Positions 1 to 43,180 of a DNA stretch of 64,000 nt are shown here, piece after piece (the stretch's first letter is position 1; each line of letters starts with the position of its first letter). The notes beneath the pieces are model-generated. The model worked only from the letters and a program-made list of their open reading frames with translations. It was not told the DNA's origin and did not search any database. Origin of the DNA: Myroides oncorhynchi. Its GTDB lineage: Bacteria; Bacteroidota; Bacteroidia; Flavobacteriales; Flavobacteriaceae. The translations under genes were made by a program, and so were the position numbers. The stretch covers positions 1,251,501 through 1,315,500 of the forward strand of contig NZ_JAJJMP010000001.1 in NCBI RefSeq assembly GCF_020905415.1, given 5' to 3'.

Positions 1-754
1 ACATTTTGTTATACCATTACTTTTTTGATTTACTTCATTTTCTTTTTATAGATTTTTTACGTATAGGTTTTTTCGGAGGACTTTATCTTACGTCTTTAGT
101 TTTTTGGAAAAATAATAATCTTTTATAACGCTCTGAGATTTCCATATTTTTTTTTGAATGTGACTTAGTCCGTTTTATGGAAATTATAGCAAGGAAATTA
201 GTTTCTTTTAAAATGTATGTTTAAATGTTTTTATCTAATAATCGAAGTAGGCGATGTAGTTGTTCTATTTAGAAAAATGTTTTACACAAAATATTTTAAA
301 GGAATTGTAATGGGGTAAATAATAGTTCTCGATTTGTCTTTTTGTAGTTTAGTTCTTAGCTGTTGATCAAAGTATGTGTTCTGATTGTTGTATTTAAAAA
401 AATGTTGCACGTGGAATGTTTTAGGGAAGTAGTGAAGGGTAATCGAAATAATTATTTTTATAGTTTTCTCTTTTGTTAGTGTAAAGGGAAATGATTTATG
501 TAACTTTGGTTTTCTAAATTTATTAGGTTTCTTTACTATTGTAGATTTTTATTAAAACTTCGCGTCGTAGTTTTGATATTTGAATTTTACTTTATAGATG
601 CGTAGAATATTGAAAGCTCACGTGGTTGTATTGACTATGAGCATGTGTTTTGGTGCGTATTTAAGGGAGTTAAAGCTAATTCATTAACTATCTGAGTTTT
701 TAATTCGTAAGATTGATATTTTAAGGGCTTTTTAAGTCTATTTTTTATTTTTCC
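1..754. other. AT-rich noncoding stretch at left edge
   Basis: No plausible coding frame is visible on either strand. The stretch is very AT-rich and holds a degenerate parS-like site at 403-418 (TGTTGCACGTGGAATG, three differences from the common consensus) and another CACGTG core near 618. Clear DnaA boxes were not found by eye, so an origin is not claimed. Confidence 0.5.
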
Positions 755-757
755 GTG

Positions 758-765
758 TACCTTTG
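758..765 (+). promoter_or_regulatory. -7 promoter box of ybeY
   Basis: TACCTTTG matches the Bacteroidota -7 consensus TAnnTTTG. It lies 28 nt upstream of the ATG at 794. A GTG at 755 in the same frame would overlap this box, which argues against the longer protein. Confidence 0.75.
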
Positions 766-793
766 CAACAATTATTTTTTAATAGAGAAAAGA

Positions 794-1213
794 ATGATAT
801 TTTTTAACTATGAAACTGATTTTCAATTAGTTGATTTAACTAAATATGAAGATTGGATAGAAGAGATAGTAACTTCAGAAGGATTAATCCCTGGTGATAT
901 CAGTTATATATTTTGTGATGATGAGTACTTACATGAGATAAATGTAAAATATTTAGATCATGATACATTGACAGATATTATTAGTTTTGATTATTGTGAA
1001 GGTAAAATAGTTTCAGGAGATATTTTCTTGTCTGTAGAAAGAGTTCGTGAGAACGCCAAGGAATTTAATGTTGATTTTGATGTTGAATTAGTGAGAGTTA
1101 TGGCTCATGGTGTGTTACACTACTGTGGATATAAAGACAAATCACCAGAAGACGAGCGTTTAATGCGCAGTAAAGAAGAGGAGAAAATGGCTATGTTCCA
1201 CGTGGAACAATAG
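794..1213 (+). CDS. ybeY: endoribonuclease YbeY (rRNA maturation factor)
   Basis: Predicted single-strand endoribonuclease of the UPF0054 family, acting in 16S rRNA maturation and ribosome quality control in the cytoplasm. The 139-residue product carries the family zinc motif near the C-terminus as HGVLHYCGYKD: two histidines are present, while the third ligand position is Asp instead of the usual His, probably a lineage variant. The start at 794 is chosen because a longer GTG start at 755 would run through the promoter box. The final codons (MFHVEQ, stop) are written by a parS palindrome at 1194-1209. mnmG follows after 40 nt on the same strand. Confidence 0.9.
   Translation: MIFFNYETDFQLVDLTKYEDWIEEIVTSEGLIPGDISYIFCDDEYLHEINVKYLDHDTLTDIISFDYCEGKIVSGDIFLSVERVRENAKEFNVDFDVELVRVMAHGVLHYCGYKDKSPEDERLMRSKEEEKMAMFHVEQ
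1194..1209. other. parS-like centromere site 1
   Basis: TGTTCCACGTGGAACA is a perfect 16-bp palindrome, one base from the widely conserved ParB-binding consensus TGTTNCACGTGAAACA. It overlaps the last codons of ybeY, encoding FHVEQ. Two further good sites lie within 2 kb. Confidence 0.8.
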
Positions 1214-1237
1214 TATTTTCTAAGTAATTTAATTTAA

Positions 1238-1253
1238 TGTTTCACGTGGAACA
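1238..1253. other. parS-like centromere site 2, abutting the mnmG start codon
   Basis: TGTTTCACGTGGAACA has one difference from the ParB-binding consensus. It ends at 1253 and the mnmG ATG begins at 1254, so the site occupies the position of a ribosome binding site. Bound ParB could plausibly affect mnmG expression; that is inference. Confidence 0.8.
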
Positions 1254-3131
1254 ATGAGTATATTCGCTGATAAATATGATGTAATAGTAGTAGGAGGAGG
1301 GCACGCTGGTTCAGAAGCTGCTGCTGCTGCTGCAAATATGGGTTCTAAAACTTTATTGATAACAATGAGTTTGCAAAACATCGCCCAGATGTCTTGTAAT
1401 CCTGCAATGGGAGGAATCGCTAAGGGGCAAATCGTTAGAGAGATTGACGCTTTAGGGGGGTACTCTGGAATTGTCTCTGATAAAACAGCGATACAGTTTA
1501 AGATGCTTAACAAATCTAAAGGGCCTGCTATGTGGTCACCCCGTGTTCAGTCGGATCGTATGCGCTTCGCTGAGACATGGAGACTGATGCTAGAGGGAAC
1601 TCCTAATTTGGATTTTTACCAAGACATGGTACGCTCACTTATTATTAAAAATCATAAGATAGAAGGAGTAGTTACTAATCTGGGCTTAGAGATAAAAGCT
1701 GAAACGGTAATTCTAACTAATGGTACATTCTTAAATGGACTTATCCATATCGGTGAGAAACAATTCGGTGGAGGTAGAGCTGGAGAGAGTGCTGCTTATG
1801 GTATTACTGAAGACTTAGTGAAAGCTGGTTTTGTTTCAGGACGTATGAAGACAGGTACACCTCCGCGAGTAGATGGACGTTCTTTAGATTATAGTAAAAT
1901 GGAAGTTCAAGGTGGTGATGTTAACCCTTCTAAGTTCTCATATTTAGATATAACAAAACCATTAGTAGAGCAAAGAGATTGCTATATGACATATACTTCG
2001 CCTGAAGTGCATGACTTATTGCGTGAAGGATTTGATCGTTCACCGATGTTTACGGGTCGTATTAAAAGTATTGGACCACGTTATTGTCCATCGATAGAGG
2101 ATAAGATTAATCGCTTTGCTGATAAAGAAAGACACCAAATATTCGTTGAACCTGAAGGATGGAATACATGTGAAATTTATGTAAATGGGTTCTCTACATC
2201 GTTACCTGAGGAAGTTCAGTTTAAGGCTCTTCGTTCTGTAGCAGGATTTGAGAAAGCTAAAATATTTAGACCAGGTTATGCTATTGAGTATGATTATTTT
2301 CCACCTACACAGTTAAAGCATACATTAGAAACTAAATTGATAGATGGTTTATTCTTTGCTGGGCAGATTAATGGTACTACTGGATATGAAGAAGCTGCTG
2401 CGCAAGGATTAATGGCAGGTATGAATGCGCACTTAAAAGTACAGCAAAAAGGTGAATTAATTCTTAGAAGAGATGAGGCATATATAGGTGTTCTTATTGA
2501 TGATTTGATTACTAAAGGAACAGAAGAACCATATAGAATGTTTACTTCTCGTGCAGAATATCGTACACTTTTACGTCAAGATAACGCTGATTTTAGATTA
2601 ACACCTAAGTCGTTTGAACTAGGTTTAGCATCTGAAAAACGTATGAGAAGAATGGAGCATAAGCAAACTCAGGCTGAAAACTTCGTGCAATTCTTTAAAG
2701 AAACTAGTATTAAACCTGAAGAGGGAAACCCTATTTTAGAGGAGAAAGGATCGTCATTAATGCATCAAGCAGATAAGATGTTTAAGGTTTTTTCACGTCC
2801 TCAAATAGAGTTAGAAGATATCCTTAAATTCGAGAAAGTAAAGACGTATATCGAGGAAAACGATCTAGATCAAGAAATTCTAGAACAAGCTGAAGTACAA
2901 GTTAAGTACTCTGGATATATAGAGAAGGAGAAGAATAATGCAGATAAATTGACTAGGTTAGAGGATGTAAAAATACCTGAAAACTATGACTACGATAAGA
3001 TAGTATCACTATCATTTGAGTCTCGTGAGAAGTTTAAAAAGATTAGGCCTATTACTATTTCTCAGGCATCACGTATAAGTGGTGTAACTCCTACAGACAT
3101 ATCTATCTTGCTTATCCATATGGGTAGATAG
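1254..3131 (+). CDS. mnmG: tRNA uridine-5-carboxymethylaminomethyl modification enzyme MnmG (GidA)
   Basis: FAD-dependent enzyme that with MnmE installs the carboxymethylaminomethyl group on wobble uridine 34 of several tRNAs. The 625-residue length is normal. The N-terminus has the Rossmann dinucleotide motif VIVVGGGHAGSEAA (about residues 10-23), followed by the family blocks SCNPAMGGIAKG and GPRYCPSIEDK, and near residue 370 the FAD-contact region FFAGQINGTTGYEEAAAQG. The C-terminal helical domain that docks MnmE is complete to the stop. The start is set by the good N-terminus and the parS site ending one base upstream. gidA genes lie near the replication origin in many bacteria, which agrees with the parS cluster. 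Confidence 0.97.
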   Translation: MSIFADKYDVIVVGGGHAGSEAAAAAANMGSKTLLITMSLQNIAQMSCNPAMGGIAKGQIVREIDALGGYSGIVSDKTAIQFKMLNKSKGPAMWSPRVQSDRMRFAETWRLMLEGTPNLDFYQDMVRSLIIKNHKIEGVVTNLGLEIKAETVILTNGTFLNGLIHIGEKQFGGGRAGESAAYGITEDLVKAGFVSGRMKTGTPPRVDGRSLDYSKMEVQGGDVNPSKFSYLDITKPLVEQRDCYMTYTSPEVHDLLREGFDRSPMFTGRIKSIGPRYCPSIEDKINRFADKERHQIFVEPEGWNTCEIYVNGFSTSLPEEVQFKALRSVAGFEKAKIFRPGYAIEYDYFPPTQLKHTLETKLIDGLFFAGQINGTTGYEEAAAQGLMAGMNAHLKVQQKGELILRRDEAYIGVLIDDLITKGTEEPYRMFTSRAEYRTLLRQDNADFRLTPKSFELGLASEKRMRRMEHKQTQAENFVQFFKETSIKPEEGNPILEEKGSSLMHQADKMFKVFSRPQIELEDILKFEKVKTYIEENDLDQEILEQAEVQVKYSGYIEKEKNNADKLTRLEDVKIPENYDYDKIVSLSFESREKFKKIRPITISQASRISGVTPTDISILLIHMGR

Positions 3132-39770: not shown

Positions 39771-40625
39771 ATGAAAAAACTTTTAGTAGGATTATTTACT
39801 GTATTAGCGGTGTATTCGACTCATGCTCAGGAAACTGAAGCAACTACTACACCTGAAATGGCTAGTCCATGGACAAAGGCTGGAAACTTTACTTTTTTGC
39901 TTAATCAGTCTAGTTTTTCTAACTGGCAAGCTGGTGGAGATAATAATATCTCTGGAAACATTAAGGTGAACTATGATTTTAATTACAAAGAAGGTGATTG
40001 GAATTGGGACAACAAAGTTTTAGGAAGTTATGGATTGACTAAATTACAAGGTCAAGATCAGAAGAAAACTGACGATAGATTTGAGTTCAATTCATTATTA
40101 GGTAAAAAAGCACAAGGGAATTGGTTCTATTCTGCTTTTGTAAACTTTAAGACTCAATTTGATAGAGGAGTTAGTAAAGAGGGAGAGTATAATTCGCACT
40201 TTATGTCTCCTGCTTATTTACAAATTGGACCTGGTATGTTATGGAAGAAGAGTGATAATTTAAAAGTGAATATTGCACCTGCTACTTCACGTCTTATTTT
40301 TGTTCACAACCATTTTACTGAATTAGGTGATGCTTTTGGTGTTGAACAAGGTAAATCAATGAAGTACCAACTGGGGATGTCTATTAATGGATACTATAAA
40401 TTCGATGTTATGGAGAATGTATCTGTTGAGAATATCTTAAACTTATATTCTAACTACTTAAAGAAACCTGAGAACGTAGTTGTAGATTACCAATTGAATG
40501 TAGTAATGAAGATTAATAAATATCTTTCTACTAACTTCACATTCCAAACTATCTATGATGATCTTGCATTCCAAGGTTTCCAAATTAGAGAAATGATTGG
40601 TGTAGGAGTTAATTATAATTTCTAA
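39771..40625 (+). CDS. DUF3078 outer-membrane-type protein
   Basis: A 284-residue exported protein: signal peptide cut after THAQ (about residue 20), then alternating beta-strand patterns and a C-terminal aromatic (GVGVNYNF) typical of outer-membrane barrels. WTKAGNFTFLLNQSSFSNWQ, then AGGDNNISG, matches DUF3078 of Bacteroidota. Function unknown. It has its own promoter but directly follows the suf genes. A long palindromic terminator follows. Confidence 0.85.
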   Translation: MKKLLVGLFTVLAVYSTHAQETEATTTPEMASPWTKAGNFTFLLNQSSFSNWQAGGDNNISGNIKVNYDFNYKEGDWNWDNKVLGSYGLTKLQGQDQKKTDDRFEFNSLLGKKAQGNWFYSAFVNFKTQFDRGVSKEGEYNSHFMSPAYLQIGPGMLWKKSDNLKVNIAPATSRLIFVHNHFTELGDAFGVEQGKSMKYQLGMSINGYYKFDVMENVSVENILNLYSNYLKKPENVVVDYQLNVVMKINKYLSTNFTFQTIYDDLAFQGFQIREMIGVGVNYNF

Positions 40626-40647
40626 TTAGTGCCAAAGATATAATAAG

Positions 40648-40673
40648 AAAGCTCGGTGATATCACCGAGCTTT
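40648..40673. terminator. bidirectional terminator between DUF3078 and asnA
   Basis: GCTCGGTGAT/ATCACCGAGC is a perfect 20-bp palindrome with flanking AAA and TTTT. Confidence 0.8.
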
Positions 40674-40679
40674 TCTTGT

Positions 40680-41684
40680 TTATAGTAGATTGATTCCTTC
40701 TAATTCTGTTTGTTTTCTTACATCCTCAGGCCAGATACTTGCTTGTACTTCACCTATGTGTCTTTTGCGCAATAGGAACATACAGATTCTTGATTGTCCT
40801 AATCCACCACCGATGCATAGAGGTAACTTTTCTGCTAGCAATAAGCTGTGATATAACAGTGTTTTCTTATCTGATGCACCAGCTAAATCTAACTGGTGTT
40901 CTAATGCTTCTTTATCTACTCTTATTCCCATTGAAGATAGTTCTAGAGACTTCTCATGTACTGGGTTCCATACTAGTAAATCTCCATTTAATCCTTTGTA
41001 ACCTTCTTCTGTAGCTGTAGTCCAGTCATCATAATCAGCAGATCTGCTATCATGCGCCTCGCCATTCGATAGTTTACCTCCGATACCGATGATAAATACA
41101 GCTCCATAATCCTTCGCTATGGCGTGTTCTCTTTCTTTTGGAGATAGAGTAGGGTATAACTGTAATAATTGCTCAGAGTGAATAAATGACAACTTTTTTG
41201 GTAAGATAGGTTCTATTCCTTGATCTTTGTACACTTGCTCTTCTGTATCTAATAAGGCTTGGTAGATTTGACGTACTATATTCTTTAGGTAACTAAGTGT
41301 TCTATCTGTTTTTTCTATTCTTAATTCCCAGTCCCATTGGTCAACATAGATAGAGTGGATAGGGCTACTGTCTTCATCAGGACGCAATGCTTTCATATCT
41401 GTTAGGATACCTTCGTGAGCATCTAGTTCTAGTTCTTGTAGTCTGATTCTTTTCCATTTTGCCAAAGAGTGAACCACTACACCACGATTGTTATTTAGAA
41501 ATTTTACAGGGAATGACACTGGACGCTCTATCCCGTTTAAGTCATCGTTAATACCAGTCCCCTCATTTACGATCATTGGTGATGAAATTGGGAATAAGTT
41601 AAGTGCATCACATAGGCTTTTAGAGAATTGTGCTTTCACTAAGGCAATGGATTTTTCTGTCTGTAAAATTTCTTTTTTGCTCAT
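40680..41684 (-). CDS. asnA: aspartate-ammonia ligase (asparagine synthetase A)
   Basis: A 334-residue ATP-dependent enzyme making asparagine from aspartate and ammonia, related to class II aminoacyl-tRNA synthetases (E. coli AsnA is 330). Family blocks are LFPISSPMIVNEGTGINDDL, NNRGVVVHSLAKWKRIRL, SIYVDQWDWE, GIGGKLSNGEAHDSRSADYD and GGGLGQSRICMFLL. Directly upstream lie an intrinsic terminator (41715-41743) and an Asn-rich short ORF (41769-41849) on the same strand. This arrangement suggests control by asparagine supply through transcription attenuation. Confidence 0.96.
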   Translation of the reverse strand: MSKKEILQTEKSIALVKAQFSKSLCDALNLFPISSPMIVNEGTGINDDLNGIERPVSFPVKFLNNNRGVVVHSLAKWKRIRLQELELDAHEGILTDMKALRPDEDSSPIHSIYVDQWDWELRIEKTDRTLSYLKNIVRQIYQALLDTEEQVYKDQGIEPILPKKLSFIHSEQLLQLYPTLSPKEREHAIAKDYGAVFIIGIGGKLSNGEAHDSRSADYDDWTTATEEGYKGLNGDLLVWNPVHEKSLELSSMGIRVDKEALEHQLDLAGASDKKTLLYHSLLLAEKLPLCIGGGLGQSRICMFLLRKRHIGEVQASIWPEDVRKQTELEGINLL

Positions 41685-41714
41685 GATTTTTTGTTTTTGA
41701 AAATGTTTTAAAAT

Positions 41715-41743
41715 AAAAAAAGGCTCCTCAGAGAGGAGCCTTT
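41715..41743 (-). terminator. attenuator terminator in the asnA leader
   Basis: On the minus strand AAAGGCTCCTC (41743-41733), loop TCT, GAGGAGCCTTT (41729-41719), then an unbroken run of seven T (41721-41715) and ATTT. It stands 30 nt before the asnA ATG, downstream of the Asn-rich ORF and not after any long gene. TCCTCT within its 5-prime arm and loop can also pair with AGAGGA (41800-41795) inside the leader ORF. Confidence 0.85.
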
Positions 41744-41768
41744 AAACGGATAATGAAATAATATATAA

Positions 41769-41849
41769 TTAACTTAAATCAATGCCAATAGGATTCCTCT
41801 TCGAGTCGTAGATACGATTCAAATTATTATTAGAGAAATTATTATTCAT
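41769..41849 (-). CDS. asparagine-rich leader peptide of asnA
   Basis: A 26-codon ORF starting ATG at 41849 and ending TAA at 41769. The peptide begins MNNNFSNNNLNRIYD and contains 8 Asn (positions 2-4, 7-9, 11, 19), all AAT codons. It lies upstream of a terminator and of asnA on the same strand. The layout (regulatory codons, a segment able to pair with the terminator arm at codons 17-19, the terminator, then the biosynthetic gene) is that of amino-acid attenuators such as trp and his leaders. A ribosome slowed at Asn codons would leave codons 17-19 free to block the terminator. Seen in the sequence; the mechanism is inference. Confidence 0.8.
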   Translation of the reverse strand: MNNNFSNNNLNRIYDSKRNPIGIDLS

Positions 41850-41885
41850 TGATAGATACATATAATCAGCTTTTTAGCAATACTG

Positions 41886-41893
41886 TAAAAATA
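41886..41893 (-). promoter_or_regulatory. possible -7 box of the asnA leader
   Basis: Minus-strand TATTTTTA differs from TAnnTTTG at the last base and lies 36 nt before the leader ATG. A clear -33 box is not seen. Confidence 0.4.
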
Positions 41894-41947: not shown

Positions 41948-43180
41948 CTATTCTTCTTCCGAAGGCTCCATTAAATGTTCATAATCGGGGAATAAAAAGT
42001 TGTTATACGGGAAGCGCGTAACGTGTATTTGACGTACCGTCTCGTATATTTTCTTTCTAAATTCTTCGAAGTTTTCCTTCTCTGTAGCAGAGATAAATAT
42101 GGTGTTCTCTTCTCCCACTTTACTCATCCACGTTTTCTTCCACTCTTCTATTGTATAGTGTTTAGAAGTACGCTCTGTCATTAAATCATCTTCTTCTATA
42201 GTCTCCGCTTTATAAGCATCGATCTTATTAAAGACCATGATTGTTGGCTTGTCGTCACTCTTGATATCCTTTAGGATCTCATTTACAGATTCGATATGCT
42301 CTTCAAAATCGTGATGTGAGATATCCACTATGTGTAACAGTAAATCTGCCTCTCTTACCTCGTCAAGTGTACTTTTAAATGACTCAACTAATTGAGTAGG
42401 TAGCTTGCGGATAAATCCTACCGTATCTGATAATAAGAATGGCAAGTTACCAATTACGATCTTACGCACTGTAGTATCTAATGTTGCGAATAGTTTATTC
42501 TCAACAAATACTTCACTCTTACCCACAGCATTCATTAGGGTAGATTTACCTACGTTAGTATATCCTACTAGTGCTACACGTACCATTGCTCCTCGATTTC
42601 CACGTTGAGAAGCCATCTGTTTATCGATAACCTTTAGTTTCTCTCTAAGTAAAGTGATACGGTCGCGTACGATACGTCTATCCGTTTCGATCTCTGTCTC
42701 TCCAGGTCCTCTCATACCAATACCTCCACGCTGTCTCTCTAAGTGAGTCCACATACCTGATAGTCTAGGTAGTAAATATTGGAACTGTGCTAACTCCACT
42801 TGCGTACGTGCATATGAAGTCTGTGCTCTTTGAGCGAAGATATCTAGGATTAAGTTTGTACGGTCTAATACCTTACAATCTAATTCTCTAGAAATATTTT
42901 TTTGTTGAGCTGGTGTCAACTCATCATCGAATATTACCGTATGAATATCGTTCTCTACAATGTAACTATGGATTTCTTCCATTTTCCCCGTACCTACGAA
43001 GGTCTTAGGATTTGGCTTATCCATCTTTTGTGTAAAGCGCTTATATACTTCTCCTCCTGCTGTAAATGTCAAAAACTCTAGCTCATCTAGATACTCTTTA
43101 AGTTTCGACTCATCTTGATTTTGTGTAATGATTCCTACGATTACAGAACGTTCAAAATTTATTTCTTCTCTTTCAATCAT
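41948..43180 (-). CDS. hflX: ribosome-associated GTPase HflX
   Basis: A 410-residue GTPase that splits or rescues stalled ribosomes. The N-terminal HflX domain (SVIVGIITQNQDESKLKEYL to VGTGKMEEIHSYI) and the glycine-rich linker LERQRGGIGMRGPGETEIET precede the G domain: G1 GYTNVGKSTL, G3 DTVGFIRKLP, G4 FNKID. The C-terminal tail is acidic. Its promoter box lies at 43200-43207. It is upstream of the asnA leader on the same strand, but with about 100 bp and a new start signal between. Confidence 0.95.
   Translation of the reverse strand: MIEREEINFERSVIVGIITQNQDESKLKEYLDELEFLTFTAGGEVYKRFTQKMDKPNPKTFVGTGKMEEIHSYIVENDIHTVIFDDELTPAQQKNISRELDCKVLDRTNLILDIFAQRAQTSYARTQVELAQFQYLLPRLSGMWTHLERQRGGIGMRGPGETEIETDRRIVRDRITLLREKLKVIDKQMASQRGNRGAMVRVALVGYTNVGKSTLMNAVGKSEVFVENKLFATLDTTVRKIVIGNLPFLLSDTVGFIRKLPTQLVESFKSTLDEVREADLLLHIVDISHHDFEEHIESVNEILKDIKSDDKPTIMVFNKIDAYKAETIEEDDLMTERTSKHYTIEEWKKTWMSKVGEENTIFISATEKENFEEFRKKIYETVRQIHVTRFPYNNFLFPDYEHLMEPSEEE

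Follow-up and report, generated by a model that had tools for sequence, protein, structure and literature searches.

The asnA leader in the window

The 64,000-nucleotide stretch of Myroides oncorhynchi DNA analysed here (the window) carries on its minus strand asnA, whose identity as the gene for aspartate--ammonia ligase is given by TIGR00669 (E 4.5e-124, above the NCBIfam cut-off). Between the stop codon of the preceding gene, hflX, at 41948 and the asnA start at 41684, and on that same strand, lie a short open reading frame (ORF) rich in Asn codons and a predicted intrinsic terminator. The features to which we refer below, all on the minus strand, are as follows.

41886 to 41893, minus strand: predicted -7 promoter box (TATTTTTA), from comparison of the sequence with the flavobacterial consensus TAnnTTTG, from which its last base differs
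41769 to 41861, minus strand: leader ORF of 30 codons plus stop, with eight Asn codons (6, 7, 8, 11, 12, 13, 15 and 23), from the sequence
41832 to 41853, minus strand: region 1, the first Asn codons and the NFS codons, predicted partner of region 2 and beyond (fold, relatives)
41817 to 41846, minus strand: main Asn-codon run (Asn at 7 of the 10 codons), where the ribosome is predicted to stall, from the sequence
41778 to 41801, minus strand: partner strand of region 1, including region 2 (fold)
41790 to 41800, minus strand: region 2 (AGAGGA..CCT), predicted antiterminator arm (duplex tests)
41741 to 41778, minus strand: A/T-rich spacer, part of which folds onto the start-codon region (alignment, fold)
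41732 to 41741, minus strand: region 3 (AGG.TCCTCT), which spans the terminator's 5' arm and loop and can pair with either region 2 or region 4
41710 to 41743, minus strand: predicted intrinsic terminator, a stem (41743 to 41719) and T-rich tail (sequence; covariation in relatives)
40680 to 41684, minus strand: asnA, aspartate--ammonia ligase (TIGR00669 over cut-off), the regulated gene in our proposal

The -7 consensus is that given in the searched text of PMC9723704, and the position of the box predicts an RNA start near 41881. An earlier note on this DNA had described a leader ORF of 26 codons (41849 to 41769) with eight AAT codons, seven of them within the first eleven; that frame is present on the minus strand, but its start probably lies further out, at ATG 41861 (MYLSMNNNFSNNNLNRIYDSKRNPIGIDLS), to give 30 codons, because this ATG is kept in all seven of the closest leaders (L001 and L024 to L029) whereas the inner ATG at 41849 is replaced by TTG in two of them and by TTA in two more. 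The spacer from 41778 to 41741 is almost unchanged in an alignment of the same seven leaders, for which the fold offers a reason, in that part of this A/T-rich stretch pairs with the start-codon region. The terminator that the note had placed upstream of asnA was recovered as a stem of 11 bp, six of them G-C, followed by a T tract, and the complete leader and terminator folded with a z-score of -4.1, none of 200 shuffles being as stable. Both AGAGGA (41800 to 41795) and TCCTCT (41737 to 41732) lie where they had been placed, and the short competing pairing proposed between them exists as complementarity but understates the duplex, which is longer, CCT at 41792 to 41790 also pairing with AGG at 41741 to 41739. 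A separate terminator-like hairpin, legible on both strands, occupies 40647 to 40674, between the convergent asnA and an ORF at 39771 to 40625.

The locus combines an upstream ORF on the strand of the gene, a series of codons for the amino acid that the regulated pathway makes and a predicted intrinsic terminator, as do leader-peptide attenuators. Judging from sequence, we consider it very likely that the Asn-codon ORF and the predicted terminator constitute a ribosome-mediated transcription attenuator, which would switch on asnA under a shortage of charged tRNA-Asn. What we infer, along the following lines, is that transcription terminates, that ribosomes stall and that the system responds to asparagine. 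With ample Asn-tRNA, the ribosome would pass the Asn codons and cover region 2, leaving regions 3 and 4 to form the terminator and transcription to end before asnA. With scarce Asn-tRNA, the ribosome would stall on the Asn codons and block the pairing of region 1, so that region 2, which starts about 10 nt on, could pair with region 3, no terminator would form and asnA would be transcribed. If the leader were not translated at all, the terminator would form by default, with region 2 taken up by region 1.

Leaders and alternative pairings at related asnA loci

The gene asnA is itself scarce, being found in 13 of 299 genus-sample, 23 of 299 family-sample and 14 of 296 phylum-sample genomes (each count includes the window's own). 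Within the genus, an ORF and terminator precede asnA at all 13 loci, and at 12 of these the ORF holds at least four Asn in 12 codons, the single exception being L033, with four Asn in its whole leader; the absence from close relatives which the earlier note had named as fatal to its reading was therefore not what we found. Outside the genus, the unit is missing from the majority of asnA genes. It is present at 7 of 20 evaluable loci from other genera of the family (L002, L003, L004, L005, L006, L008 and L010; L017 and L023, cut by contig ends, are excluded from the count) and at 2 of 12 further phylum loci (L037 and L042, spotted by eye and confirmed by script), while 9 of 79 named loci passed automatic screening (the best 80 of a longer list, 79 of them with enough upstream sequence). 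The named carriers are Hymenobacter frigidus, H. pini, H. gummosus, Hymenobacter sp. CRA2, Solirubrum puertoriconensis, Vaginella massiliensis, an uncultured Mesonia, a Bacteroidales MAG and, as a weak pass with four Asn, Rhinopithecimicrobium faecis; NCBI taxonomy assigns Hymenobacter to Cytophagales and Vaginella to Flavobacteriaceae. In total, the unit stands at 31 of 124 evaluable asnA loci and is lacking from 93, among them 13 of the 20 other-genus family loci, in a set that includes the named loci (the best 80 of a longer list) and in which some genomes were perhaps sampled twice, L039 and L054 looking identical in source. Tandem pairs at six loci (L002, L003, L005, L006, L068 and L083) bring the number of units to 37, in whose leaders Asn accounts for 254 of 909 residues (28%) and is the commonest residue in all but one (36/37). 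Among asnB loci, 29 of the 30 that could be judged have no Asn leader, and L157 has only 73 nt upstream.

Several loci show peculiarities of their own. L030 to L033 have few Asn codons, from six down to four, and retain the terminator, and seem to be losing these codons. The second leader ORF of L005 and L006 has no stop ahead of the terminator, its reading frame being open through it, and the second unit at both loci encodes NNN[SD]PPPGGE, a proline run following the Asn run; in L002, L003 and L083, too, the second unit has prolines beyond its Asn run. At L035/L036 (G468) the asnA match falls in two adjacent pieces in different frames (residues 7-269 and 271-334), hence the gene at this locus may be broken, or its sequence misread.

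Leader ORFs elsewhere can act on translation or mRNA stability, and with the asnA start only 30-odd nt past the hairpin in the window, the position of the ribosome on the short ORF might instead expose or hide that start. Control of this kind seems to us quite improbable, given that the hairpins end in T tracts and that in 12 of the 37 units over 140 nt separate the end of the terminator from asnA, too great a distance for it to hide the start directly.

Still less probable is that the hairpin merely terminates hflX, the Asn-rich ORF being a by-product of AAT repeats in A/T-rich DNA. The leader region is A/T-rich, and hflX does precede it, in the same orientation, both in the window and at 12 of the 31 leader loci, but hflX is missing from the fetched stretch at the other 19; the unit accompanies asnA, not its neighbour. 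Nor is the pattern common in the same A/T-rich genome: across the window and 40 further stretches of 20 kb (864 kb of 4.16 Mb), 413 upstream regions were scanned, 59 of which held a terminator, and asnA alone had an ORF with at least five Asn in 12 codons ahead of one. Run for each of the 19 remaining amino acids, the identical scan gave three matches (two Leu, one Val). The Val match, a Val/Ile-rich leader, precedes a gene identified by eye as ilvD-like, and so is an unplanned positive control. Covariation of regions 2 and 3, and the presence of the same leader-terminator unit before gatC (both below), also tell against a by-product. The window's genome has one asparaginyl-tRNA synthetase (AsnRS) above cut-off, no asnB above the family cut-off and no gatB, which leaves asnA as its sole source of Asn among those searched for.

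A T-box or riboswitch-like leader RNA which senses tRNA or a ligand, the ORF being incidental, we regard as very improbable too, for although T-boxes reportedly govern Asn-tRNA supply in Clostridium, and sub-threshold Rfam matches overlap with some leaders (Phe_leader in L053, E 0.31, and L034, E 0.95; L10_leader in L037, E 0.55; STnc100 in L001, E 0.12), no Rfam 15 family reached its gathering score in the window, no T-box matched at E <= 1 in 11 related loci, and Asn makes up 28% of leader residues.

The attenuator proposed above requires pairings that exclude one another. For regions 2 and 3, we took the best duplex between the stretch from the last clustered Asn codon to the terminator, and the 5' arm and loop of the terminator. 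In 35 of 37 units this duplex begins 3-17 nt beyond that Asn codon (at 30 nt in L031 and L032), near the expected edge of a ribosome stalled on that codon. It was stronger than in shuffled sequence at p <= 0.05 in 25 of all 37 units (200 shuffles), and in 13 of 19 clade representatives (2000 dinucleotide shuffles; Fisher p 1.1e-14), the shuffles being of a kind that does not preserve coding, and the representatives having been picked by the author after the all-unit test, with five second or tandem units and three members of one Hymenobacter-like group among them. The summed energy of the 19 true pairs is -240.8 kcal/mol; with arms swapped among them it averaged -169.6 (sd 10.3), and no permutation out of 20,000 did better than -213.1. 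The letters of the duplex differ between clades, being AGAGGA/TCCTCT in L001, CGGGAAGTT/GGCTTCTCG in L035 and GAGGAAGATTT/AAGTCTTCCTC in L002, which argues that it is the pairing, and not the sequence, that is conserved. A predicted antiterminator that would exclude the terminator is thus found in relatives, weakly so in L030 to L033, where the pairing is no better than in shuffles (p about 0.6); taken singly, L034, L005.2, L068.2, L083.2 and L052 are also not significant.

Region 1, composed of the first Asn codons and those that follow (AATAATTTCTCT in the window), resembles region 3 in its letters, and in the fold pairs with region 2 and the stretch past it, enclosing an inner hairpin. This predicted protector, which includes the control codons, is likewise found in relatives: in the part ahead of the terminator, 12 of the 19 representatives beat shuffles at p <= 0.05 (Fisher p 9e-14), for a longer fold that was tested after a weaker result on a shorter segment (Fisher p 1e-4). 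The window's own leader without its terminator is not significant alone (p 0.16), and in the MAFFT alignment A2 the inner hairpin is not aligned across clades. The terminator alone appears in the RNAalifold consensus, and in the leaders of 24 relatives 7 of its 10 pairs show double changes that keep the pairing. Covariation, for which the earlier note had suggested looking, extends from the terminator to the pairing of region 2 with the terminator arm, and the competing structure that it had set against the terminator is backed by both shuffles and between-clade arm swaps; its attenuator reading is supported.

Leaders before gatC and other genes

A covariance model built from 24 asnA leaders alone was run on 249 genus and 249 family genomes. 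In the genus, 10 matches reached E <= 1e-9; all are asnA leaders, either included in the model or almost identical to it, and so arise largely by construction. The family gave 29 matches at E <= 2e-5, every one of which lies ahead of asnA or the gatC system: four before asnA, again by construction, and 25 before gatC, which, unlike the strong asnA matches, do not arise by construction. No asnA was found in any of these 25 genomes. The gatC leaders encode 14-16 residues (for example MINNNNNNNFNNPNF) and have regions 1-4 as in asnA leaders, with the pairing of regions 2 and 3 significant at p <= 0.05 in 24 of the 25 leaders and the upstream fold reaching that level in 17, all being close relatives and not independent.

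The next ORF after the leader encodes a GatC-like protein of 87-89 aa at all 25 loci (two tested gave TIGR00135 E 3e-4 and 1e-4, below cut-off). GatA follows at nine of nine loci read further (TIGR00132 E 3e-131 for one tested in full, below the curated cut-off), and after it, in all five stretches taken further, comes a protein of 1110-1112 aa, one of which was scanned and has GatB and bacterial aspartyl-tRNA synthetase (AspRS) domains above cut-off. By position, a long-frame gatB lies on the contig of the leader in 23 of 25 genomes (in G170 it is on a different contig and in G124 the contig ends), which traces an operon gatC-gatA-gatB::aspS. The GatB-AspRS fusion is already named by NCBI, our query from G163 being identical to a protein of Algibacter luteus. 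The GatC-like protein has an Asn-rich linker, such as TNNNSFNNNRNN (L232-L258, L295-L302, L304-L310), which is also present in most operons that have no leader.

Of 32 genomes tested, all have AsnRS and 31 a separate AspRS above cut-off, while gatB occurs in 24 of the 25 gatC-leader genomes versus none of the seven asnA-leader genomes tested. An asnB above cut-off is present in 8 of 25 gatC-leader and 8 of 20 asnA-leader genomes, so that, among asnA, asnB and gatCAB, the fused system would be the sole Asn route in 17 of 25 genomes, two of which are under 90% complete. According to the searched text of PMC4206432, GatCAB together with a non-discriminating AspRS can supply Asn in Bdellovibrio; the gatC-gatA-gatB::aspS operon is expected to make Asn-tRNA. 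The leader is not obligatory: gatB is found in 40 of 249 family genomes and the leader match in 24 of them, and of the 16 operons that lack a match, 15 have no Asn-rich ORF within 230 nt of gatC and one is cut by a contig end.

Among the matches listed, the family also has many weak ones, and 133 of the 143 genus genomes with a match have only matches above about 1e-4; weak matches are excluded from all counts of Asn leaders. Thirty-one were inspected, some of which are ilv-type or Cys-rich leaders, the remainder resembling gene ends or chance. Short Asn-containing ORFs with terminators at L215-L217, L228 and L230 were rejected, four of the five having no following ORF of at least 60 aa and one having it at 747 nt. 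The ilv-type leaders, which came from the upstream scan or from the model, precede genes named by eye, ilvD-like at L199 (G000), L259 and L312, and ilvE-like at L211, L214 and L313; like the Asn leaders of the same family they comprise a short ORF, a terminator and a similar region 2 (GGAAGGCTATTG), but their codons are for Val, Ile and Leu. The likeness of region 2 raises the possibility that the two kinds share an origin. At L218, a Cys-rich short ORF picked out by eye (MIFTICNMCCCMGKISAEMTIA; leader 1501-1619, gene 615-1307, minus strand) has GCAGAG opposite the CTCTGC of a terminator, 193 nt upstream of cysH (NF002537 above cut-off), which makes it a candidate Cys attenuator, with similar-looking loci at L213 and L220.

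Relation to known systems

The earlier note had known of no described Asn attenuator before asnA, and in keeping with this no Asn leader was found among Rfam 15 matches or in the literature searched, comprising, among others, the searched text of PMC7366714, PMC4833913, PMC2965389, PMC4206432 and PMC9723704; a term search of PMC1262725 found none of the terms sought. The searched text of PMC9723704 gives clues to leader-peptide attenuation before amino-acid operons of F. psychrophilum, asparagine going unnamed in its main text. In the same body of literature we found no paper on the GatB/AspRS fusion or its control.

More broadly, we think it probable, though with rather less assurance than for the attenuator at asnA, that Bacteroidota possess an Asn attenuation regulon, in which one leader design serves whichever route of supply a genome has, free Asn from AsnA, or Asn formed on its tRNA by GatC, GatA and GatB-AspRS. 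If so, asparagine becomes a further amino acid that leader-peptide attenuation senses, and a single regulon spans two enzyme systems that are unrelated, in a phylum where RNA-based control has received little study. In the gat version the Asn-tRNA sensed would be the product of the operon itself, closing a direct feedback loop, and the leader points to a function for the GatB-AspRS fusion in bacteria that possess AsnRS and a separate AspRS as well. The two attenuators in series at six asnA loci might make a tighter switch, and offer a natural test case for serial attenuators.

Two known systems control Asn supply by other means. In E. coli the same gene, asnA, is controlled to the same end, the matching of Asn synthesis to need, by AsnC, a DNA-binding protein which acts at the promoter and involves no attenuator, whereas the asnA of the window would be governed through its leader. 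In Clostridium acetobutylicum, tRNA-dependent Asn synthesis is reportedly under T-box control, as Saad is said to have described in 2012; that system likewise senses the charging of tRNA-Asn and controls aspS and gatCAB genes, the counterparts here encoding a bifunctional GatB/AspRS fusion (so named among NCBI proteins), but the T-box binds the tRNA directly, whereas the Asn leader would sense it via the translating ribosome. The closest likeness in design is to the ribosome-mediated leader-peptide attenuators known for the trp, his, ilv, leu, phe and thr operons, which similarly place a short ORF rich in codons for the product, mutually exclusive regions 1-4 and a terminator before the first gene. 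The Asn leader would differ from the trp and his type in sensing asparagine, in its targets, asnA and gatCAB::aspS, and in the two serial units at six asnA loci; the logic of attenuation is trp-like, and what looks new is that asparagine is sensed, that the regulon covers two routes and that units occur in tandem.
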